Assembly: GCA_016649715.1 (NCBI GenBank)
Contig: JAENXC010000013.1
Span: forward strand, 38,283-102,282
Direction of reading: 5' to 3'
DNA from: Flavobacteriaceae bacterium
GTDB lineage: Bacteria; Bacteroidota; Bacteroidia; Flavobacteriales; Flavobacteriaceae
Length of the DNA: 64,000 nt
The notes under the pieces are model-generated. The model saw only the letters and a program-made list of their open reading frames with translations, did not search any database and had not been told where the DNA came from. Position numbers and translations under genes: made by a program. Of this stretch, positions 3,716 to 59,083 are shown piece by piece; the first letter of the stretch is position 1; every line of letters starts with the position of its first letter.

Positions 3716-4879
3716 TCATTCCAAAACAATCCTTCTGACAGCCAGAACTTCCCCGTTTTTAAAAACAGCAGCATAAACGCCACTTCCCAAAAACCCTAAA
3801 TCCAAAGTAGTGTTTTCAGTATTCAAAGAAGTGCTGTAAACCCTTTTTCCCAAAACATCAAAAACCGTCATTGCTAAAGGTTCAGAAAGTGGCGTGTTTA
3901 GGCGAATGTTCAGTATTCCGTGGGAAGGGTTTGGGTAAAGAACCAAGTTTGCATCAAAATTGTTTTCTGAAACGCCCAAGGGTTCGCGCGCCACGGCAAA
4001 ATGCAATGCCGCGCCCAAAGCGCCTTTTGAAACTTCAAAAACGTAATCGGGGTCCATGTTTTCAATAATGTCATTGGGGCCGTGCGGGTAGGGCGACTCG
4101 TTGGCTTCATAAAGACCCGTAATCACTTCGCCATTGTTTTCAAACGGCATATAGTCTGAAGCATAGGCATAGGAAATCTCCGTTTGAAGGTTGGAATACA
4201 GCCCGAAACAGTTCGCCATTTCCTGCGTAGCCTGTGCAGACGCCGCGTTGTTTGAGCTTGGCGAAGACTCGTCGCGCTCGCAAACAATGGTGTTGTTGTT
4301 CATACTGGCAACGCCGCCCACTTCGTCTATGTTCAGGACCAATTTAATGTCCAAATTTTCAGGAATTACGGTGTGGTTCACGTAATACTCGCTGCCCACC
4401 AAACCTTCTTCCTCGCCGCTAAAGTGGATAAACTTGATGGAATAATCAGTATCTACGTCTTTTAGCAACCTTGCCAGTTCCAGTATTAGCACGGTTCCGC
4501 TGCCGTTATCGTTGGCACCGGGGCCGTTTAAGGTGTCGTAATGGCCATCAATTATCAGAAAAGTATTTGGATAAACGCTCCCCGTTTTGGTGATGATGAT
4601 ATTGGAGGTTGTTTGCCCATAAACGTTAAATGGCTGTGTTTCAATAGTGGTGTAGCCCAAAGCTTGGTAGCGCGCAATGATCCAGTTTTTTGCGGCTTCA
4701 ATTTCGCTGCTTCCGGGCTCTTTTACGCCGAAAGCTACCAAAGTAGTGAGGTCGTTTAAAATGTTTGTTGAAGAAGTGTTTTCAACAATTCCGTTGTAAT
4801 AGGGGTTGAAAACCTGTGCGTTAGCGCTGAAAATTGTAAAAAGGCAAAGTAAAATTGTAAACTGGGGAAATGATTTCAT
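3716..4879 (-). CDS. Secreted M28-family zinc aminopeptidase/carboxypeptidase with T9SS sorting domain
   Basis: 387 aa. A signal peptide at residues 1-21 (ending SANAQ) precedes an M28 peptidase domain (about 30-300). Zinc ligands and catalytic residues of the family are visible: H113 in DGHYDTLNGPGANDNGSGT with D124, the E156-E157 pair in HFSGEEEGLVGSEYY, and D185 in LNIDEVGG. The last 75 residues are a T9SS type A sorting domain (LVLYPNPSHGILNIRL, MTVFDVLGKRVYS, ending AVRRIVLE). It should act outside the cell, removing terminal residues from peptides for nutrition. It lies in the same direction as the small T9SS gene that follows it. Confidence 0.9.
   Translation of the reverse strand: MKSFPQFTILLCLFTIFSANAQVFNPYYNGIVENTSSTNILNDLTTLVAFGVKEPGSSEIEAAKNWIIARYQALGYTTIETQPFNVYGQTTSNIIITKTGSVYPNTFLIIDGHYDTLNGPGANDNGSGTVLILELARLLKDVDTDYSIKFIHFSGEEEGLVGSEYYVNHTVIPENLDIKLVLNIDEVGGVASMNNNTIVCERDESSPSSNNAASAQATQEMANCFGLYSNLQTEISYAYASDYMPFENNGEVITGLYEANESPYPHGPNDIIENMDPDYVFEVSKGALGAALHFAVAREPLGVSENNFDANLVLYPNPSHGILNIRLNTPLSEPLAMTVFDVLGKRVYSTSLNTENTTLDLGFLGSGVYAAVFKNGEVLAVRRIVLE
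3828..3939. repeat. Near-identical 112-bp sorting-domain repeat, copy 2
   Basis: Second copy of the repeat at 3063-3174, in the M28 peptidase gene. The match covers the PNPS...GILNIRL...VFDVLGKRVYS part of the sorting domain. Confidence 0.85.
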
Positions 4880-12711: not shown

Positions 12712-12831
12712 GACATAGGACAATAAGACATAGGACGTAAGACAAAAAAAATCCGTCTCTATAAACACTCGGATAAATATTTAAAAAGGAATGAAAAGAG
12801 TCCTATGTCTTACGTCTTTTAGTCTTATGTC
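12712..12831. repeat. Inverted pair of GACATAG heptamer arrays
   Basis: Left arm 12712-12743 reads GACATAG, GACAATAA, GACATAG, GACGTAA, GAC. The right arm 12800-12831, read on the minus strand, is GACATAA, GACTAAAA, GACGTAA, GACATAG, GAC. The arms match at about 25 of 32 positions and could pair around a 56-nt loop. Confidence 0.8.
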
Positions 12832-21880: not shown

Positions 21881-21921
21881 GTTCAGTGGTCAGTATTCAG
21901 TTGCTTGCATCAGTATTCAGT
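21881..21921. repeat. Heptamer array, ATTCAGT type
   Basis: Consecutive 7-mers GTTCAGT, GGTCAGT, ATTCAGT, TGCTTGC, then ATCAGT and ATTCAGT, starting 1 nt after the LytTR gene stop codon. It belongs to the 7-nt-period class found in many gaps of this window. Confidence 0.7.
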
Positions 21922-23622: not shown

Positions 23623-23708
23623 AATTTAATTTTCAGTAGAGGCGCGATTTGTTGCACGCAAAATATTTGATGTTCAATAATAGGCATTTAGGTTCAGTGT
23701 AACGACAT

Positions 23709-23757
23709 CGGTCATCGGTCATCCGTCATCCGTCATCCGTCATCCGTCATCCGTCAA
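23709..23757. repeat. Heptamer tandem array, CCGTCAT x7
   Basis: Seven contiguous 7-mers: two CGGTCAT, four CCGTCAT and one CCGTCAA, in the gap between the glutamate synthase-like and helicase genes. This is the least degenerate array in the window. Confidence 0.9.
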
Positions 23758-23887
23758 CCAAAAATCGCCTTTAAAGATATTTATTTTCAACCGATCAAAA
23801 ATAAAAAAGATGTTTATAATTTCACACAGATCTATTTACTTATTCCTTTCATAATGGCTATTTTCACAACTTGAAGAAAATGAAGTT

Positions 23888-31286: not shown

Positions 31287-31342
31287 AATTCCAAATTTCA
31301 AGCACCAAATTCCAAATAAATCACAAAAAAATAAATTCCAAA
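31287..31342. repeat. Heptamer array, AATTCCA type (copy 1)
   Basis: Contiguous 7-mers AATTCCA, AATTTCA, AGCACCA, AATTCCA, AATAAAT and then looser copies, in the 242-nt gap before holA. A 20-nt core starting CACCAAATTCCA recurs at 45617-45636. Confidence 0.8.
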
Positions 31343-34628: not shown

Positions 34629-34716
34629 AATTCCAAAATTTAAAACCCAAATTCCAAAGAAAGCGTCTTTTTGGAGTTTGGATTTTTTAATTTGGTACTT
34701 CAACTTAAAAAAATTA
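34629..34716. repeat. AATTCCA heptamer array with inverted arm (copy 2)
   Basis: Starts at the hydrolase stop codon: AATTCCA, AAATTTA, AAACCCA, AATTCCA, AAGAAAG. It is followed by an opposing arm rich in TTTGGA/TTTGGT, so the transcript can fold into a loose hairpin before menC. Confidence 0.7.
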
Positions 34717-40313: not shown

Positions 40314-40328
40314 AACGACTGGGATTGA

Positions 40329-40368
40329 GTTTAGAAGTTTACGAGTTTAAAAGTTTAGAAGTGTAATT
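40329..40368. repeat. Octamer array, GTTTAGAA x5
   Basis: GTTTAGAA, GTTTACGA, GTTTAAAA, GTTTAGAA, GTGTAATT: an 8-nt rather than 7-nt period, in the gap between the phosphatase and dnaA. Confidence 0.75.
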
Positions 40369-45115: not shown

Positions 45116-45601
45116 ATGGACACATCGATAATCCGACTTATTGAAAAGAAGGACAACCCGCAAATTGCCAAAGTGATTCGTAGCGTTTTGGAAGATTTCA
45201 AAGTGCCAAAAGTAGGTACCGCTTTTGCCGATACCGCTTTGGATTGTATGTTTGAAACCTATCAAAAACCAAAAGCAGTTTATTTTGTAGTTGAGGAAAA
45301 CAATAAAATAATCGGTGGTGCGGGCATGGCGAAATTGGACAATTTTGAGGGTAATGTTTGCGAGCTCCAAAAAATGTATTTTCTTCCCGAGGCCCGCGGA
45401 AGGGGAATTGGTACCCAAATGATGGAATTTTGTTTGGCAAAAGCCCGCGAATTCGGTTTTGAAAAATGTTATTTGGAAACGATGGAATATATGACACACG
45501 CCCAAAAGCTTTACAAACAATCGGGTTTTGAATATATAAAATGCGCAATGGGCGATACGGGGCATTATTCCTGTCCAGTGCATATGTTGAAAAAGTTATA
45601 A
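45116..45601 (+). CDS. GNAT-family N-acetyltransferase
   Basis: 161 aa single acetyltransferase domain. The acetyl-CoA binding motif A is LQKMYFLPEARGRGIGTQMMEFCL, with the RGxGxG pyrophosphate loop. The C-terminal beta-strand region HAQKLYKQSGFEYI completes the fold. The substrate is unknown. It is divergent from ribD (28 nt) and its stop touches the first AATTCCA heptamer of an intergenic array. Confidence 0.88.
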   Translation: MDTSIIRLIEKKDNPQIAKVIRSVLEDFKVPKVGTAFADTALDCMFETYQKPKAVYFVVEENNKIIGGAGMAKLDNFEGNVCELQKMYFLPEARGRGIGTQMMEFCLAKAREFGFEKCYLETMEYMTHAQKLYKQSGFEYIKCAMGDTGHYSCPVHMLKKL

Positions 45602-45664
45602 ATTCCAAATTATAGGCACCAAATTCCAAATAAATCTCAAATACCAATCCCGATTGTTATCGGG
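45601..45664. repeat. AATTCCA heptamer array (copy 3) and CCCGAT/ATCGGG hairpin
   Basis: Unbroken 7-mers from the GNAT stop codon: AATTCCA, AATTATA, GGCACCA, AATTCCA, AATAAAT, CTCAAAT, ACCAATC. A perfect CCCGAT-TGTT-ATCGGG hairpin follows at 45649-45664. Confidence 0.85.
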
Positions 45665-45729: not shown

Positions 45730-46587
45730 TTGAATATATCCGAACTAAAAAAAAAATTTAAAAAGCAACTTTCAGGATTATACCCTTCGGAAGAAATACA
45801 ATCATTTTTCAGCATTCTTTCTGAAAAATATTTGAAACTTTCCCGAATAGAAATTGCTTTAAATCCCGAAAAAATTATTTCCGAAGAAGCTTTCGAAAAA
45901 TTTCAGCGAGCCGTTCTTCGCCTTAAAAACCACGAACCCATTCAATATATAATAGGAGAAACCGAATTTTTCGGACTTCCATTTAAAGTGAACAAACACA
46001 CCCTAATTCCGCGTCCCGAAACGGAAGAACTGGTAGAATACATTATTTCTGAACAAAAACCCATAACTCATAACTCACAACTCATAACTATTTTAGACAT
46101 CGGCACCGGCAGCGGCTGCATCGCCATTGCACTTGCCAAAAACCTTCCAAATTCAAAAATTTCAGCGATAGATATTTCGGGAGAAGCTTTAAATATCGCC
46201 AGACAGAATGCCGCACTAAATGGAGTGGAGGTAGCTTTCTTTCATACTGATATTTTAAAAGCGCAATCGCTTCCAAAGCTATATGATTTAATAGTTTCCA
46301 ATCCCCCTTATGTGCGCGAATTGGAAAAAAAGCAAATGCAACAGAACGTTTTGAACCACGAGCCAGAGTCAGCTTTATATGTTTCAGACGAAGACCCTCT
46401 GCTTTTTTATCGTGCTATTTCGCAACTCGCAAAAAAGCATTTGAAACCCAATGGAAAACTCTTTTTCGAGATTAATGAGTACCTTGCTGTTGAATTGACC
46501 AAGCATTTAAAAGTCGAAGGTTTCCAAAATATTGAAGTGAAAAAAGACATCTTCGGAAAAGACCGAATGATTAAATGTAACTTATAA
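45730..46587 (+). CDS. prmC: Release factor glutamine N5-methyltransferase PrmC with internal heptamer array
   Basis: 285 aa, TTG start (MNISELKKKF). N-terminal helical domain to about residue 100 (PIQYIIGETEFFGLPF, TLIPRPETEELVE), SAM motif I ILDIGTGSGC (121-130), and the catalytic NPPY at 191-194. It methylates the GGQ glutamine of RF1 and RF2. The linker coding P-I-T-H-N-S-Q-L-I-T (about 111-120) is made of four tandem heptamers (CATAACT, CATAACT, CACAACT, CATAACT; 46062-46089). This is a variable spot in the family, so the protein is probably intact. A weak TAnnTTTG box is absent, and its promoter is unclear. Confidence 0.93.
   Translation: MNISELKKKFKKQLSGLYPSEEIQSFFSILSEKYLKLSRIEIALNPEKIISEEAFEKFQRAVLRLKNHEPIQYIIGETEFFGLPFKVNKHTLIPRPETEELVEYIISEQKPITHNSQLITILDIGTGSGCIAIALAKNLPNSKISAIDISGEALNIARQNAALNGVEVAFFHTDILKAQSLPKLYDLIVSNPPYVRELEKKQMQQNVLNHEPESALYVSDEDPLLFYRAISQLAKKHLKPNGKLFFEINEYLAVELTKHLKVEGFQNIEVKKDIFGKDRMIKCNL
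46062..46089 (+). repeat. Heptamer array inside prmC (CATAACT x4)
   Basis: CATAACT, CATAACT, CACAACT, CATAACT run without a gap, 28 nt in total, in the interdomain linker of the prmC coding region. Confidence 0.9.
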
Positions 46588-46590
46588 ACC

Positions 46591-46679
46591 TCCGCGAAAC
46601 TCTGTGTTTACTTTGCGAAGCTCTGTGTAATAGCTATATCGCAGAGTAGCACAGAGAACCGCAGAGTAGCACAGAGAAA
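46591..46679. repeat. Inverted/tandem 20-nt repeat before the LOG gene
   Basis: Two tandem copies of a 20-mer starting CGCAGAGTAGCACAGAGAA (46640-46659 and 46660-46678) and, upstream, two looser copies in the opposite sense (CTCTGTGT...GCG motif). The array ends 2 nt before the ATG of the next gene. Confidence 0.8.
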
Positions 46680-46680
46680 T

Positions 46681-47271
46681 ATGAACAAGTTAGAAAAAAT
46701 ATGCGTTTTCTGCGGCAGCAGTGACGGCAACGATCTAATCATAACTGATGCTGCAAAAAAACTGGGCGAAATCTTCGCAGAACGCGAAATAACCTTGGTT
46801 TACGGTGCCGCGAAAATAGGAGTGATGGGCACAATAGCAAAAAGTGTTTTGGACAACAGCGGAAAAGTAGTCGGCATTATCCCAAACTTCCTTAAAAAGA
46901 AAGAAGTGGTCCACCTCGGCCTAACGGAGCTTATCACCACCCAAAACATGCACGAACGCAAACTAAAAATGCAGGAAGAAAGTGACGCCTTCATCGCCTT
47001 GCCCGGTGGGATGGGAACTTTGGAGGAACTTTTTGAAATTATAACCTGGCTTCAATTGGGCTTGCACCAAAAACCGATAGGATTGCTGAACATAAATGGT
47101 TTTTATGACGACCTCATCAACTTGCTTGAAAACATGGTGCGCAAAGGTTTTCTTTCTATGGACAACTACAATTTGCTTTTAGTGGATTCCAATCCGGTAA
47201 TGCTTCTCAAAAAAATGGAGGATTTCAAGCGGCCTGAGGTTTCAAAGTGGCTGAATGAAGAACGGGCCTAA
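46681..47271 (+). CDS. LOG-family protein (TIGR00730-like, cytokinin riboside phosphoribohydrolase-like)
   Basis: 196 aa Rossmann-fold protein. The LOG signature ALPGGMGTLEELFEIITW carries the catalytic PGGxGT and E. The N-terminus ICVFCGSSDGND and VYGAAKIGVMGTIAK are also typical. LOG proteins cleave a nucleoside 5'-monophosphate to free base and ribose phosphate; the true substrate here is unknown. Directly preceded by the CGCAGAG repeat array. Confidence 0.9.
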   Translation: MNKLEKICVFCGSSDGNDLIITDAAKKLGEIFAEREITLVYGAAKIGVMGTIAKSVLDNSGKVVGIIPNFLKKKEVVHLGLTELITTQNMHERKLKMQEESDAFIALPGGMGTLEELFEIITWLQLGLHQKPIGLLNINGFYDDLINLLENMVRKGFLSMDNYNLLLVDSNPVMLLKKMEDFKRPEVSKWLNEERA

Positions 47272-49152: not shown

Positions 49153-49614
49153 ATGTCAAACACCTATCATCAAATATACATACAGACCGTTTTTGCTGTA
49201 AAATATCGCAAAGCTCTGATTGATAAAGATTGGAAGGAGGCATTATGTGGTGTAATAGGAAATATAATTAACGAAACCGGATGCAAAACGTTGATCGTTA
49301 ATGGAGTGGAAGATCATATTCATTGTTTTTTTTCACTCAAACCTTCGTTGAGCGTTTCAGAGGTTATGCAAAGTGCCAAAGCCAAATCCTCCAAATGGAT
49401 AAACGAATCTGGGCATCTTTCCAATAGATTTGAATGGCAGCGGGGTTTCGGATCTTTTTCATATAGCAAATCGCATATTCACAATGTAATTCAATATATT
49501 CAAAATCAAGAAGCACATCATAAAAAGCAAAGTTTTTTGGATGAGTATCGTGAATTCCTAAAACGTTTTGATGTGGATTATGAAGAAGCTTATATTTTTC
49601 ATGAGCCCATTTAA
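49153..49614 (+). CDS. Y1 (HUH) transposase, IS200/RAYT family
   Basis: 153 aa Y1_Tnp domain. HUH motif in GVEDHIHCFFSL and the catalytic tyrosine region in RGFGSFSYSKSHIHNVIQYIQNQ. The tail FLDEYREFLKRFDVDYEEAYIFHEPI is the typical RAYT-type ending. These enzymes cut and rejoin single-stranded DNA at hairpins. All motifs look intact. Context (adjacent repeated hairpins, no tnpB) favours a RAYT-like role over simple IS200 transposition. A duplicated, frameshifted copy of its last 17 codons lies at 49797-49848. Confidence 0.92.
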   Translation: MSNTYHQIYIQTVFAVKYRKALIDKDWKEALCGVIGNIINETGCKTLIVNGVEDHIHCFFSLKPSLSVSEVMQSAKAKSSKWINESGHLSNRFEWQRGFGSFSYSKSHIHNVIQYIQNQEAHHKKQSFLDEYREFLKRFDVDYEEAYIFHEPI

Positions 49615-49652
49615 CTATAAGCGCTTTAGTGTGGAATCTCTTTATATCGGCC

Positions 49653-49671
49653 ATGCCTACGGCATTTTTTT
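49653..49671 (+). terminator. Hairpin-T-run after the transposase
   Basis: ATGCC-TAC-GGCAT followed by seven Ts, 39 nt after the transposase stop. It could be its terminator. A second copy with the same flanks lies near 49887-49904. Confidence 0.6.
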
Positions 49672-49717
49672 CCGGGATGATGCATAGTCCTCAGGATGAA
49701 TCCCGAGGTTAAAAGAA

Positions 49718-49786
49718 GGGTCGTGCCGCTGGCACTTGTAGGCAAATAGATTTGTCAAGCAATAAAAAGTGCCAGCGGCACGACCC
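49718..49786. repeat. Perfect 20-bp inverted repeat of REP-like hairpins
   Basis: GGGTCGTGCCGCTGGCACTT (49718-49737) and its exact reverse complement (49767-49786) with a 29-nt centre. Each arm itself is a hairpin, GTGCC-GCT-GGCAC. Diverged copies of the same pair lie at 49952-49971 and 50001-50020. Confidence 0.9.
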
Positions 49787-49796
49787 ATACTGTTGC

Positions 49797-49848
49797 CGTT
49801 TTGAAGTGGAGTATGATGATGCATATATTTTTTCATGAGCCCATTTAA
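49797..49848 (+). pseudogene. Duplicated 3' end of the transposase gene (frameshifted)
   Basis: This stretch matches the last 51 nt of the transposase gene (49564-49614) with several substitutions and one extra T, which shifts the frame. It marks the start of a second, about 235-bp-spaced copy of the whole 3' region. Confidence 0.8.
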
Positions 49849-49922
49849 GATGAAGGGCTATATTTATGGATATTTTTATATCGGCCATGCCTACGGCATT
49901 TTTTCCCGAGATGATGTATAGT

Positions 49923-49942
49923 CCTCGGGATGAATCCCGAGG
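49923..49942. repeat. Perfect palindrome CCTCGGGAT/ATCCCGAGG
   Basis: A 9-bp perfect stem with a 2-nt GA loop. The first copy at 49689-49708 has one mismatch. It is part of the duplicated RAYT 3' unit. Confidence 0.85.
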
Positions 49943-50000
49943 TTAAAAAAAGAGTCGTGCCGCGGGCACTTATGGGCAAATAGACTTGTCAAGGAATAAA

Positions 50001-50162
50001 AAGTGTCAGCGGCACGACCCATTTTATGGCCTTGGAATTTATTCCAAGGAATATAAAGAAAGGCTAGCAATGAAAAAGTGCCAGCGGCACGACCCATTTT
50101 ATGGCCTTGGAATTTATTCCAAGGAAAAAAGAGTGCGATAGAATAGTGCCAGAGGCACGACC
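50001..50162. repeat. Tandem units of REP hairpin plus CCTTGGAAT palindrome
   Basis: The core AAGTGCCAGCGGCACGACCC occurs at 50076-50095, with near copies at 50001-50020 and 50145-50162, spaced 75 and about 68 nt. The first two are each followed by the perfect palindrome CCTTGGAAT-TT-ATTCCAAGG (50030-50049, 50105-50124). Confidence 0.9.
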
Positions 50163-55071: not shown

Positions 55072-55121
55072 ACTGAATACTGCGTACTGGCTACTGAACA
55101 CTGAACACTGAATACTGAATT
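55072..55121. repeat. Heptamer array, ACTGAAT x7, ending at the coaBC start
   Basis: ACTGAAT, ACTGCGT, ACTGGCT, ACTGAAC, ACTGAAC, ACTGAAT, ACTGAAT, then one T and the ATG of coaBC. Seven exact 7-nt steps with no gap. Confidence 0.92.
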
Positions 55122-56345
55122 ATGGCTGTTTTGAGCGGTAAAAATATCTTGCTTGGCGTTACTGGCGGGATTGCTGCTTATAAAGCGGCTTTTTTAGTTC
55201 GTATACTTATCAAAAAAGGTGCTAACGTAAAAGTTGTGATGACAAATTCTGCTAAAGAATTTGTTACTCCGCTCACGCTTTCAACACTTTCAAAAAACGA
55301 AGTATTTTCTTCTTTTACCGAAGAAAAAGACCCAAAGAGTTTCAAAGAGCCCAAATGGAACAACCACGTTGAGTTGGCCCTTTGGGCAGATTTGTTTCTG
55401 ATAGCTCCCGCCACGGCAAACACACTTTCCAAAATGGCGAATGGCACTTGCGACAATCTGTTGTTAGCCTGCTACCTTTCCGCAAAATGCCCCGTGTATT
55501 ACGCGCCCGCGATGGATTTGGATATGTACAAACACCCAACAACCGCGGAAACTTTTGAAAAGCTGAACAGCTTTGGAAACATTCAGATTCCAGCGGCTTT
55601 TGGCGAATTGGCGAGTGGTTTAGTAGGGCAGGGCAGAATGGCCGAACCCGAAGAAATTGTTTCCTTTTTGGAAAATGATATTTTGAAAAAACTTCCACTT
55701 TACGGCAAGAAATTTTTGATAACTGCTGGGCCAACTTATGAGGCTATTGACCCCGTTCGTTTTATCGGGAACCATTCCAGTGGAAAAATGGGTTATGCCA
55801 TTGCAGAGACCGCAGCACAACTTGGTGCTGAGGTTGTTTTAATTTCTGGCCCTTCGGCTTTAAAACTTGAAAACGATTTCGTTAAAATAATTCGAGTCAC
55901 TTCCGCCGCAGAAATGTATAATACCGCGCACGAATATTTCGGCAAAAGTGATGTCGCCATTTTAAGCGCGGCCGTTGCCGATTATCGCCCTTCTGAAATT
56001 GCTTCGGAAAAAATTAAAAAGAAAGAGGATAATTTCACACTTCAACTTACGAAAACCAAGGATATACTTGCATCGCTGGGCGAAATAAAGAAAAACCAAT
56101 TCCTCGTAGGTTTTGCTCTGGAAACCGAAAACGAGGAAGAAAACGCAAAATTGAAACTGAAAAAAAAGAATTTAGATTTAATTGTGTTAAATTCGCTTCG
56201 GGACGAAGGCGCAGGTTTTCAAACCGACACCAATAAAGTTACTTTGATAACCAAAGACAATAAAACGCTTCCTTTTCCTGTTAAACCTAAAAAAGAAGTA
56301 GCAAAAGATATTTTAGAATTTATTATAGAACAGACCAATGCGTAA
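55122..56345 (+). CDS. coaBC: Bifunctional phosphopantothenoylcysteine decarboxylase/synthetase
   Basis: 407 aa. CoaC domain (1-190): GVTGGIAAYKAAFLVRIL, catalytic His in NNHVELALWADL, and YYAPAMDLDMY for the substrate clamp. CoaB domain (195-407): LITAGPTYEAIDPVRFIGNHSSGKMGYAIAE, SAAVADYRPSEIASEKIKK and KTKDILASLG. It makes 4'-phosphopantetheine in coenzyme A synthesis. The preceding 49 nt are a heptamer array. Its 3' end overlaps the DUF4835 gene by 8 nt. Confidence 0.95.
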   Translation: MAVLSGKNILLGVTGGIAAYKAAFLVRILIKKGANVKVVMTNSAKEFVTPLTLSTLSKNEVFSSFTEEKDPKSFKEPKWNNHVELALWADLFLIAPATANTLSKMANGTCDNLLLACYLSAKCPVYYAPAMDLDMYKHPTTAETFEKLNSFGNIQIPAAFGELASGLVGQGRMAEPEEIVSFLENDILKKLPLYGKKFLITAGPTYEAIDPVRFIGNHSSGKMGYAIAETAAQLGAEVVLISGPSALKLENDFVKIIRVTSAAEMYNTAHEYFGKSDVAILSAAVADYRPSEIASEKIKKKEDNFTLQLTKTKDILASLGEIKKNQFLVGFALETENEEENAKLKLKKKNLDLIVLNSLRDEGAGFQTDTNKVTLITKDNKTLPFPVKPKKEVAKDILEFIIEQTNA

Positions 56346-57228
56346 AATTTTACTTTTCTTATTAGTTGCAACCGCAGTGTTTTCTTCACAGGCACAAGAG
56401 CTCAATTGTACCGTTTCCATTGATGCAGCACAGACTGGACAGCCCAATTTACAGATTTTTAAAACCTTGGAAACCCAGTTGCGCGAATTTGTGAACAACA
56501 CAAAATGGACCGACAAAGAGTACAAAAACCAAGAGCGGATAGACTGCAACATGAGCTTGATTATAAGCCAATACGATGGAGATACTTTTACGGGAACCTT
56601 GCAAATACAGTCGTCGCGGCCTATTTTTGCCTCAACTTATGACAGCCCAGTCTATAACTATATTGACAAGCAGCTTAGCTTTAGTTACAAGGAATTCGAA
56701 CCGCTCATTTTTAATATAAACAGCTTTGGCAACAACCTTGTTTCGGTTGTGGCGTTTCACATTTACACTGTTATAGGGCTGGATGCTGATACTTATACAC
56801 TAAACGGCGGAACTCCCTATTTTGAGATAGCAAAACAGATTACAAACACTGCCGCCTCCAGCAATTATACCGGATGGAAAGCCACCGATGGAAACCAATC
56901 GAGATATCGTTATAACGATGCGTTGATTTCCTCTGTATATAAAGATTTTCACGATGTGATGTATGAATACCACCGCGAGGGAATGGACATTATGGCCGCC
57001 AACCAAAAAGATGCCAAAGAAAAAATTGCGGACGCCATCAATAAGTTGAAAGGTATAAACGACCGTCGTCCAAACTCGTATTTAGTACGTACTTTTTTTG
57101 ATGCGAAAAGCGACGAAATACAAGCCATTTTCAGCGGCGGTCCACAGGTTGATATCACCAAACTAGTTGAAAACCTAAACAAATTGGCCCCCACAAAACG
57201 CAGCAACTGGTCCGAGATTAAGTTTTAG
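56338..57228 (+). CDS. DUF4835 family secreted protein
   Basis: 296 aa. Signal peptide at residues 1-19 (MRKILLFLLVATAVFSSQAQ). The family shows QELNCTVSIDAAQTGQPNLQ, FKTLETQLREFVNNTKWTD, SPVYNYIDKQLSFSYKEFEPL and IYTVIGLDADTYTLNGGTPYFE. It is a periplasmic or envelope protein conserved in this exact place in Bacteroidota; function unknown, perhaps linked to the outer membrane. Its start overlaps coaBC by 8 nt. Confidence 0.93.
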   Translation: MRKILLFLLVATAVFSSQAQELNCTVSIDAAQTGQPNLQIFKTLETQLREFVNNTKWTDKEYKNQERIDCNMSLIISQYDGDTFTGTLQIQSSRPIFASTYDSPVYNYIDKQLSFSYKEFEPLIFNINSFGNNLVSVVAFHIYTVIGLDADTYTLNGGTPYFEIAKQITNTAASSNYTGWKATDGNQSRYRYNDALISSVYKDFHDVMYEYHREGMDIMAANQKDAKEKIADAINKLKGINDRRPNSYLVRTFFDAKSDEIQAIFSGGPQVDITKLVENLNKLAPTKRSNWSEIKF

Positions 57229-57234
57229 TTTTCT

Positions 57235-57338
57235 AAGATTCAAGATTCAAGATTCAAGATTCAAAATTGAGAATTGAAAATTCCTACCGTCTAACTTTTA
57301 ACTTCTAACGTCTAACCTCTAATCACTACCCACTAACC
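57235..57338. repeat. Two consecutive heptamer arrays ending at the recN start
   Basis: First AAGATTC x4, AAAATTG, AGAATTG, AAAATTC (57235-57283). Then CTACCGT, CTAACTT, TTAACTT, CTAACGT, CTAACCT, CTAATCA, CTACCCA, CTAACC (57284-57338), reaching the GTG of recN. In total 15 heptamer steps with no gap. Confidence 0.92.
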
Positions 57339-58991
57339 GTGATAACCACCCTCGCCATAAAAAACTATGCGCTCATCGAGGATATACGTGTGGATTTTAA
57401 TGAAGGATTGACAATCATTACTGGCGAAACGGGTGCTGGAAAATCCATTCTTTTGGGAGCTTTGGCTTTGCTACTTGGCAAAAGGGCAGATTTGAGCAGT
57501 GTGAAGGACGCTTCAAAAAAATGTGTGATTGAAGGCCATTTTCAATTGAAAAATTACGGACTGCAACAAGTTTTTGAGGAGTATGATTTGGATTATGAAC
57601 CCCAAACCATTATTCGCCGCGAGATTTTGCCCGGCGGAAAATCCCGCGCTTTTGTAAACGACACCCCCGTAGCACTGACGCAGCTTCAAGCGTTGGCGCC
57701 ACATTTAATAGACGTTCACAGCCAGCACGAAACTTTGGAAATTGTTTCGGAAAATTTTCAGATGGAAGTGATTGATGCCTTGGCGGAGAATGATTCACTT
57801 TTAAAATTATACCAACAACAGTTTGAGGATTTCAAAACAATTTCAGAAAAACTTTCCGCATTAAAACTTCAAAAGGAAAACGCTTCCAAAGAGCTGGATT
57901 ACAATACATTTCTATATAACGAACTGCAGCAGACAAATTTAAAAAAACTGAACCAACAAGAGCTCGAGGAAACCTACGAAACGCTGAACAATGCCGAAGC
58001 AATTCAGGAAGCGTTGGGCAATGTGAACAAACTTTTGGAAGAAGAACAGATTGGCTCCTTGCAAACAGCAAAGGAAGCGCGTATTGTTTTGGGAAGAATT
58101 AAGGAATATTCGAAAACTTTTGATGATTTCTGGCAGCGTTTGAACAGCGTTATCATTGAGTTGGAAGACATTTCAAACGAAATTGGCAATACCGCCGAAA
58201 AGATTGAGGCAGACCCCGAAATGCTTTTTCAAGTGAATGAAAAGCTGCAAACACTCTATAAACTTCAGCAGAAACATTCGGTTTCCACCGTTTCGGAATT
58301 GATTGAAATTGAAGCAGGGCTGGAAGAAAAAGTGAACACCACTTTGGGGCTCGATGGCCAAATAGAAGCTTTTGAAAAGGAAAAGAACAGCTTGCGTGAA
58401 ACTACTTTAAAAACTGCAGCGCAACTTCACAATAAAAGAGAAGAAGCTATTCCCATTCTTAAAAAGAAACTTGAGGCAACACTTTTGCCATTGGGTTTGC
58501 CGAATGCACGGTTTCAATTTGAGTTTACCGCTTCCGAAGTTTTTAGAAGTAACGGGACCGACACCTTGCAACTTTTGTTTACCGCTAATAAAGGCTTGGC
58601 TTTTGGGTTGTTGAAAAAAGTGGCTTCTGGCGGCGAAATGAGCCGGATAATGCTTGCTGTAAAAGCTGTTTTGGCGGAATATAAAAAACTGCCAACCATT
58701 GTTTTTGATGAAATAGACACAGGTGTTTCCGGCGAGATAGCAAACAAAATGGCAGGGATAATGCACCAAATGAGCAAAACAATGCAACTTTTGAGTATTA
58801 CCCATTTACCACAAATCGCCGCAAAAGGTGACCATCATATAAAAGTTTATAAAGAAGACAAAAATGAAGTAACCGCAACACATTTACAGATTTTGAATAA
58901 AGAAGAGCGCATCGTGGAAATAGCCCAAATGCTGGGCGGCAAAAATGTTTCGGAAGCGGCAATTGCAAATGCCAAAGAATTATTGAATTAA
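57339..58991 (+). CDS. recN: DNA repair protein RecN
   Basis: 550 aa, GTG start directly after a heptamer array (MITTLAIKNYALIEDIRVDF). Walker A GETGAGKS at residues 29-36, a long coiled-coil middle (about 150-380), and a C-terminal ATPase half with LKKVASGGEMSRIMLAVKAVL (signature) and PTIVFDEIDTGVSGEIANKM (Walker B). It is an SMC-like protein recruited to double-strand breaks. It lies between DUF4835 and fabI as in relatives. Confidence 0.95.
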   Translation: MITTLAIKNYALIEDIRVDFNEGLTIITGETGAGKSILLGALALLLGKRADLSSVKDASKKCVIEGHFQLKNYGLQQVFEEYDLDYEPQTIIRREILPGGKSRAFVNDTPVALTQLQALAPHLIDVHSQHETLEIVSENFQMEVIDALAENDSLLKLYQQQFEDFKTISEKLSALKLQKENASKELDYNTFLYNELQQTNLKKLNQQELEETYETLNNAEAIQEALGNVNKLLEEEQIGSLQTAKEARIVLGRIKEYSKTFDDFWQRLNSVIIELEDISNEIGNTAEKIEADPEMLFQVNEKLQTLYKLQQKHSVSTVSELIEIEAGLEEKVNTTLGLDGQIEAFEKEKNSLRETTLKTAAQLHNKREEAIPILKKKLEATLLPLGLPNARFQFEFTASEVFRSNGTDTLQLLFTANKGLAFGLLKKVASGGEMSRIMLAVKAVLAEYKKLPTIVFDEIDTGVSGEIANKMAGIMHQMSKTMQLLSITHLPQIAAKGDHHIKVYKEDKNEVTATHLQILNKEERIVEIAQMLGGKNVSEAAIANAKELLN

Positions 58992-59048: not shown

Positions 59049-59083
59049 ACCAATTAACATTAAACCATTAACCACAAACATTT
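59049..59083. repeat. Heptamer array, AACCATT type, before fabI
   Basis: ACCAATT, AACATTA, AACCATT, AACCACA, AACATTT in exact 7-nt steps, ending 5 nt before the fabI ATG. Confidence 0.75.

Follow-up and report, generated by a model that had tools for sequence, protein, structure and literature searches.

By what process does a gap between two bacterial genes come to be filled with back-to-back units of seven nucleotides, and why seven? The question is raised by the gap upstream of recN in a 3.40 Mb genome of the Flavobacteriaceae (71 contigs), from which a stretch of 64,000 nt, hereafter the window, was analysed and compared with related genomes. At the preceding gene, porD, the nearest named relatives are Aequorivita, at 88% to A. 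antarctica, A. todarodis and one MAG, the genome itself possibly having been left out of that comparison. Heptamer tandem arrays like those described here are known from cyanobacteria as STRR.

Heptamers have been credited as the favoured bacterial tandem unit since 2007. In the available parts of two later papers (PMC4679880, PMC4692102), Mrazek 2007 is credited both with the finding that heptanucleotides exceed all other bacterial tandem units in abundance and with the proposal that slippage is favoured by a 7-nt polymerase contact. Huang and Mrazek 2014 give, in the tables accessible (PMC4060949), a median 7n3 score of 0.75 for the Bacteroidetes and 0 for most phyla (Table 2), and a score of 1.27 for psychrophiles (Table 3). 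The original prediction on this locus held that no such arrays were described in Flavobacteriaceae; this was mistaken, as Aequorivita sublithincola and Gramella forsetii are both named in the available text of MacGregor 2015 (PMC4679880). There A. sublithincola is listed among the carriers of TAACTGA repeats, with other heptamers mentioned in the same gaps. No further description of heptamers in this group was found in the literature searched.

The recN gap and other arrays in the window

The porD-recN gap (57229-57338) is 110 nt long and consists almost wholly of two 7-nt arrays comprising 14 full heptamers. It is preceded by porD (56338..57228, forward strand), encoding the type IX secretion protein PorD (DUF4835; NF052317, 402 bits, over cut-off; PF16119), and followed by recN (57339..58991, forward; TIGR00634, 436 bits, over cut-off). 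Array 1 (57235..57283, forward) begins 6 nt past the porD stop codon with AAGATTC four times, continuing as AAAATTG, AGAATTG and AAAATTC; array 2 (57288..57338, forward) comprises seven CTAAC-like units plus CC and stops at the GTG with which recN is predicted to begin. Fifteen back-to-back heptamers had been counted originally: two arrays are indeed present, but with 14 full units and a 4-nt joint, CTAC, between them. The description of two different words, AAGATTC-like then CTAAC-like, with the second array running exactly up to the predicted recN GTG, was accurate. This predicted start is supported by a GTG, ATG or TTG at the equivalent position in the majority of the 15 named relatives. 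A known structured RNA was considered and rejected, the window giving no Rfam match that reached the gathering score.

Each site was assessed by comparing its best lag-7 segment score with first-order Markov shuffles; as substitutions are tolerated by this test but indels are not, it under-scores arrays interrupted by single-base indels. The top segment of the recN gap, 57235-57338, scored 42, a value reached by 0 of 1,000 shuffles, p 0.001 being the floor for that number. A period of seven had also been proposed for nine other places in the window, among which three proved firm, one weak and five without significance on their own. The first firm site (23706..23759, no strand assigned; p 0.001) lies in a divergent gap upstream of a PcrA/UvrD-like helicase gene and holds about seven GTCATCC/GTCATCG units; neither GTCATCC nor any other lag-7 array was found in the approximately 400 nt upstream of that gene in 27 other genomes of the genus. 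The second, an ACTGAAY array (55072..55120, forward; p 0.001), lies between an RNA polymerase omega-like gene and coaBC and ends 1 nt before the ATG; words and length of this gap vary among 15 relatives. Array 2 and this one stand directly before a start codon on the forward strand; arrays also abut stop codons. The weak site (21883..21901, reverse strand, within the proposed 21881-21921; p 0.026) is also of ACTGAAY type, reading ACTGAAT ACTGACC ACTGAAC. The five remaining places are 12712-12831 (p 0.14), 31287-31342 (p 0.30, the best lag-7 segment lying outside this stretch), 34629-34663 (p 0.10), 45601-45649 (p 0.09) and 59049-59083 (p 0.30). At 12712-12831 the spacing mixes 7 and 8, for which reason lag 7 by itself is not significant, and lag 15 fits better; its GACATAG-type units are followed about 60 nt further on by their reverse complement, CCTATGTCTTACGTC, an inverted array pair that could form a hairpin.

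The third firm site lies within a protein-coding gene. An ATAACTC array (46058..46089, forward; p 0.003 against 300 shuffles of the whole CDS) is carried in frame by prmC (45730..46587, forward; TIGR03534, 268 bits, over cut-off) and codes for ITHNSQLIT; since 7 is prime to 3, three units are read in three frames. The corresponding loop, located before the LDIGTG motif, was compared in 27 genomes, the pattern having missed G008. ATAACTC units occur here (G000) and in G011 and G013, and in degenerate form in G006; AATTCAG-type units occupy the loop in G003, G018, G019, G041 and G042, and CAATCAA-type units in G005, G010, G016, G017 and G040. G020 has a single ACTCATA unit, its loop being 21 nt shorter than that of the window, and the remaining 12 of the 27 are degenerate or of other sequence. 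Three perfect ATAACTC units would bring in an in-frame TAA; the codon in question is CAA here and in G013, and AAA in G011. As the PrmC loop shows, heptamers can be tolerated as protein too, in three frames, provided that no in-frame stop arises.

Repeats of other kinds were observed in the window as well. An 8-nt array of AGTTTAGA-like units occupies 40327-40362, and a 20-nt unit, CGCAGAGTAGCACAGAGAAC, is present in two perfect copies at 46640-46678, just short of the gene that begins at 46681; a partly inverted relative lies just upstream. Short palindrome-like repeats (CCCTTCGACTGCGCTCAGGG, CCCGAGAATTCGGGG, CCCGATTGTTATCGGG) lie in or beside heptamer-like stretches at 45649-45664 and in the recN gaps of loci L033 and L028. 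An ORF at 49153-50022, which by eye we take to resemble an IS200-like transposase, contains an imperfect 234-nt tandem duplication (49564-50022).

Density and period across genomes

The density of arrays was estimated from 20 interior stretches of 20 kb (L158-L177; 400 kb) picked without looking, which contain 230 gaps totalling 39 kb. Thirteen lag-7 clusters were detected in 12 of these gaps (about 5%), against 0.4 in shuffles, confirming the genome-wide excess that the original prediction had proposed to look for. Lag 8 gave eight clusters, lag 6 one, and lags 3, 4, 5 and 9 none; period 7 is thus favoured and period 8, to which the AGTTTAGA-like array belongs, comes second. The first 351 kb sampled from this genome, window included, are partly biased: L010-L012 were taken around CATCCGT matches, and L015-L027 come from the beginnings of contigs, which may be points at which a repeat broke the assembly. 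Stretches of G004, G006, G009, G012 and G022 likewise came in part from contig starts. Density is accordingly judged from the interior stretches. Over the whole, partly biased sample of 751 kb, 53 lag-7 and 16 lag-8 clusters fell in 76 kb of gap, whereas the coding ORFs, 673 kb in total, held 13 lag-7 clusters, placing heptamer arrays mostly outside coding DNA. Contigs with more than 20% N (L018, L021, L023 and L024) were excluded from the counts, and gaps were delineated by a simple longest-ORF caller, so that some coding and gap labels are wrong, as with a 42-nt step after a stop codon labelled coding.

Such clusters occur in other members of the genus as well. In 50 kb of gap from interior stretches of four complete genomes, 16 clusters were counted at lag 7 and eight at lag 8; the four close-pair genomes gave 22 and two in 36 kb, G016 belonging to both sets. 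For nine other Aequorivita genomes, with 5 to 14 kb of gap apiece, the number of clusters ranged from 1 to 9, and array density may vary within Aequorivita, the counts being small. Within the same gene neighbourhood, 10 lag-7 clusters were found in 19.0 kb of gap from 15 Aequorivita loci, against four in 70.8 kb from 65 other flavobacterial loci, which is near the shuffle level of 2.6. Two distant genera (G144 and G267), chosen for their ACTGAAY arrays, were array-poor elsewhere, with four lag-7 clusters in 47 kb of gap. That the 7-nt pattern is a chance product of AT-rich gap base composition accords with the five places in the window that are not significant alone, but the blind-stretch counts, with their empty periods of 3, 4, 5 and 9, and the difference between Aequorivita and the other loci reduce this explanation to a negligible probability. 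The origin of the arrays from ordinary base composition, named at the outset as one outcome that would overturn the idea, was already refuted genome-wide by the blind counts.

Whole-unit differences between relatives

The recN gap itself differs among Aequorivita. AAGATTC is present there in four exact copies in the window, six in A. todarodis, one in the MAG PDA75, where the lone copy stands beside a CCCTTCGACTGCGCTCAGGGTGACA hairpin repeat, and none in 13 other named Aequorivita loci. In comparison with the 15 named relatives, a lag-7 cluster in this gap is confined to the present genome and A. todarodis, and the CTAAC stretch is 21 nt, or three units, longer here than in the latter. At least one copy of TCTAAC occurs in nine of the 15. 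The gap of most other Aequorivita is an unrelated stretch, for which promoter replacement was considered but not adopted. Downstream of recN, GGTAGTC is repeated 13 times in A. vladivostokensis and five times in A. todarodis; it is missing from the window as well as from the remaining 13 named loci of Aequorivita.

Two close pairs of genomes were aligned, G017/G022 (89% identical over 86 kb) and a second pair (92% over 96 kb). Between near-identical flanks, an ATTCGGG array is longer in G022 than in G017 by 14 nt (two units), and an AAGCTGT array after a stop codon is longer in G016 than in G010 by 42 nt (six units); these flanks differ by one to a few substitutions. The copy-number change that the original prediction had suggested seeking in orthologous gaps was hence observed as whole-unit differences of 14, 42 and 21 nt. 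Many indels in or near arrays of the close pairs are not multiples of seven, partly owing to the alignment. Neighbouring units also resemble each other more than distant ones: adjacent-unit matches numbered 1962, against 1834.6 ± 10.5 for shuffled unit order (53 arrays, 375 units; 0 of 1,000 shuffles), and, in arrays detected at lag 14, unit identity dropped from 0.752 at lag 7 to 0.687 at lag 21 and 0.669 at lag 28.

Since unit-step differences and neighbour-biased similarity are what slippage predicts, both support it, and heptamer arrays probably change by whole units via slipped-strand synthesis or repair, in places where this is tolerated. During DNA synthesis or repair, the growing strand would pair again at a position shifted by one unit, and a unit of seven would be favoured by the stretch that DNA polymerase holds, in keeping with the available account of the published proposal. 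Arrays would survive where the harm is slight, namely in gaps and in a single variable loop of a protein; selection would cut them back at start and stop codons and would prefer sense-strand words that are rich in A and fold weakly. Unequal recombination would yield the same unit steps; we infer that slippage, not recombination, makes them. A single mechanism acting on different seeds had been put forward at the outset: one process at many places, with slippage among the options named, finds support, and the supposition of unshared words does not. Nothing in the array comparisons made here pointed to retro-like copying or to a 7-nt-binding protein, both also named in the original prediction.

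General loss of mismatch repair was considered as a cause and rejected: a search of 28 genomes of the genus found mutS in every one, in 27 of them over the family cut-off, and such loss is not needed. The sole genome below the cut-off carries mutS as two adjacent frames (G010:C15:663792-666354), possibly through faulty assembly. Outside arrays, the two close pairs showed no surplus of indels or tandem duplications 7 nt in length, one of the scorings having missed the 42-nt insert; this counts against the slippage account as regards the first step of array birth.

The present observations extend earlier work on heptanucleotide simple sequence repeats. Over-representation of the 7-nt unit is common to both, and the arrays here change by whole units; the papers on such repeats are, in their accessible parts, genome tallies, whereas orthologous sites, unit steps, neighbour similarity and words are compared here. 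The available text of PMC4679880 favours regulation or genome rearrangement for the TAACTGA repeats, while the present data favour slippage. In Xanthomonas and Nostoc, G-quadruplex heptamers of the GGGNATC type (Rehm 2015, PMC4692102, available in part) likewise form gap arrays that vary between related species in length and sequence; that word is G-rich, whereas words near starts here are G-poor. Upstream 7-bp arrays are also shared with the hmw1A and hmw2A promoters of Haemophilus influenzae, where, in the portion of PMC2424069 at hand, copy number varies between isolates and influences adhesin expression; a comparable effect on recN would be hypothetical.

Words, strand polarity and placement

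The supposition that each array has its own word was not sustained. Counted regardless of rotation and strand, the 43 independent arrays of this genome form 15 identical-word pairs; 2.1 would be expected, and none of 100 letter-shuffles gave more than six. Fourteen pairs remain, against about two expected, upon removal of the pair whose word was used in choosing stretches. Three successive ACTGAAY units (at most one mismatch) occur at 18 places in this genome (49 overlapping matches), the reversed word serving as control at 0. Beyond this genome, ACTGAAY arrays were found in 22 of 296 Bacteroidota genomes and 14 of 140 genera, with the reversed control in one, and in 13 of 30 genomes of its own family, this one included. 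AAACCTG in three successive units has a narrower range, being found in three of 120 family genomes, namely two Aequorivita (about eight and 6-7 places) and one other genus; its reversed control was found in none of the 120 and is absent from the present genome. In all, 60 word classes were counted among 87 arrays of the genus, in contrast to the TAACTGA repeats, in which one word dominates according to the available text of PMC4679880; the TAACTGA class is the consensus of one of the 87, and the recN arrays carry other words.

Shared words may suggest that the arrays are copies, spread between places or species by recombination or some unknown mobile process. The phylum-wide scatter of ACTGAAY speaks for such spreading, as does the gap after recN: a longer form with two arrays occurs in both A. 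todarodis and A. vladivostokensis, measuring 233 nt in G022, and is lacking in G017, where the gap is 69 nt, even though G017 and G022 are 89% identical. Some gains, which tell against slippage, look, from the alleles compared, like whole arrays without a clear single-copy seed in relatives, namely the 23706 site and the gap after recN, whose empty G017 allele is one of several with no clear seed. The start of contig C1 points in the same direction: at L015:1-1830 and 4380-4490, arrays are interspersed in turn with copies of a dispersed repeat, GTCATGCTGAGC...GTCGAAGC, that has 10 matches in the genome at up to two mismatches. Against spreading, the 120-nt flanks of nine ACTGA-type arrays among the 18 ACTGAAY places proved dissimilar at E 1e-3, and these arrays therefore do not move as a flanked element; nor were terminal repeats or a target-site duplication seen by eye at 23706. 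On balance spreading is unlikely. It was also observed that the words of the L015 arrays drift from CCAAATT through AATAACC to AAATCAC, and that these arrays surround a small ORF that by eye resembles an HTH gene, together with its neighbour.

The words are also polarised with respect to transcription, as judged from the partly biased sample, on which the strand, position and folding counts are all based. In 47 co-directional array gaps, 46 of them informative, A exceeds T on the sense strand in 36 and T exceeds A in 10 (p 1.6e-4), against 260 and 323, respectively, for array-free windows; C exceeds G in 27 and the reverse holds in 19, which is not significant. Near starts C (0.236) exceeds G (0.116), and near stops G (0.211) exceeds C (0.131). 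A start codon is found no more than 10 nt away from 15 of 58 arrays, and a stop codon from 20 of 58, 7.8 being expected for each, and the lag-7 excess reaches z 14.8 after stop codons and z 8.8 before starts. Four successive copies of the distinct sense words fold less than their letter-shuffles (45 words; mean -0.91 against -1.62 ± 0.30 kcal/mol), such weak folding being reached by 4 of 300 shuffles; when near-identical words were merged, leaving 28, it was reached by 12 of 300. Polarity, placement and weak folding together would be consistent with selection on transcript tolerance, replication and transcription strand being confounded here. Translation initiation was rejected as a cause on account of the stronger lag-7 signal after stops than before starts, and selection for stop codons in all frames was unconvincing, the sense word containing a stop in 33 of 61 co-directional arrays, against 27.5 ± 3.1 expected (p 0.055).

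The same features bear on the proposal that the heptamers are binding sites for an RNA- or DNA-binding protein, kept as a regulatory network; S1, a cold-shock or a CsrA-like protein was put forward as the TAACTGA binder in Beggiatoaceae in the available text of PMC4679880, where the repeats, intergenic heptamer arrays as here, lie mostly just before the start codon. Shared words, the surplus close to start codons, the A-rich sense strand and the weak folding would all suit such a binder. The stronger excess after stops, the frequent abutment on stop codons, a copy number ranging from 0 to 13 at one orthologous gap, the array in the coding loop of prmC and the multiplicity of word classes do not, rendering a binding network quite improbable.

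Slippage thus remains the preferred account, even though slippage alone does not explain the shared word set, given that identical words exceed the letter-shuffle level and the reversed controls are absent here; the above-chance period 8 also counts against it. Conceivably, though this is rather unlikely, Aequorivita has a private vocabulary of heptamers that fold weakly and are strand-polarised, made by a copying machine working in a 7-nt register and preferring certain words; were it so, it would account for words recurring at unrelated places when their reversed forms do not, and for the three words that fill the PrmC loop across species. The arrays are a real, active-looking set of a known kind, of which the shared, weakly folding and strand-polarised words are the unexplained part. 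With lag-7 clusters in about 5% of its gaps in the blind sample, cultivated species and clean unit-step alleles, Aequorivita makes the question of why seven testable, through the rate of slippage by unit length, its dependence on polymerase and RecA, and the role of the words.
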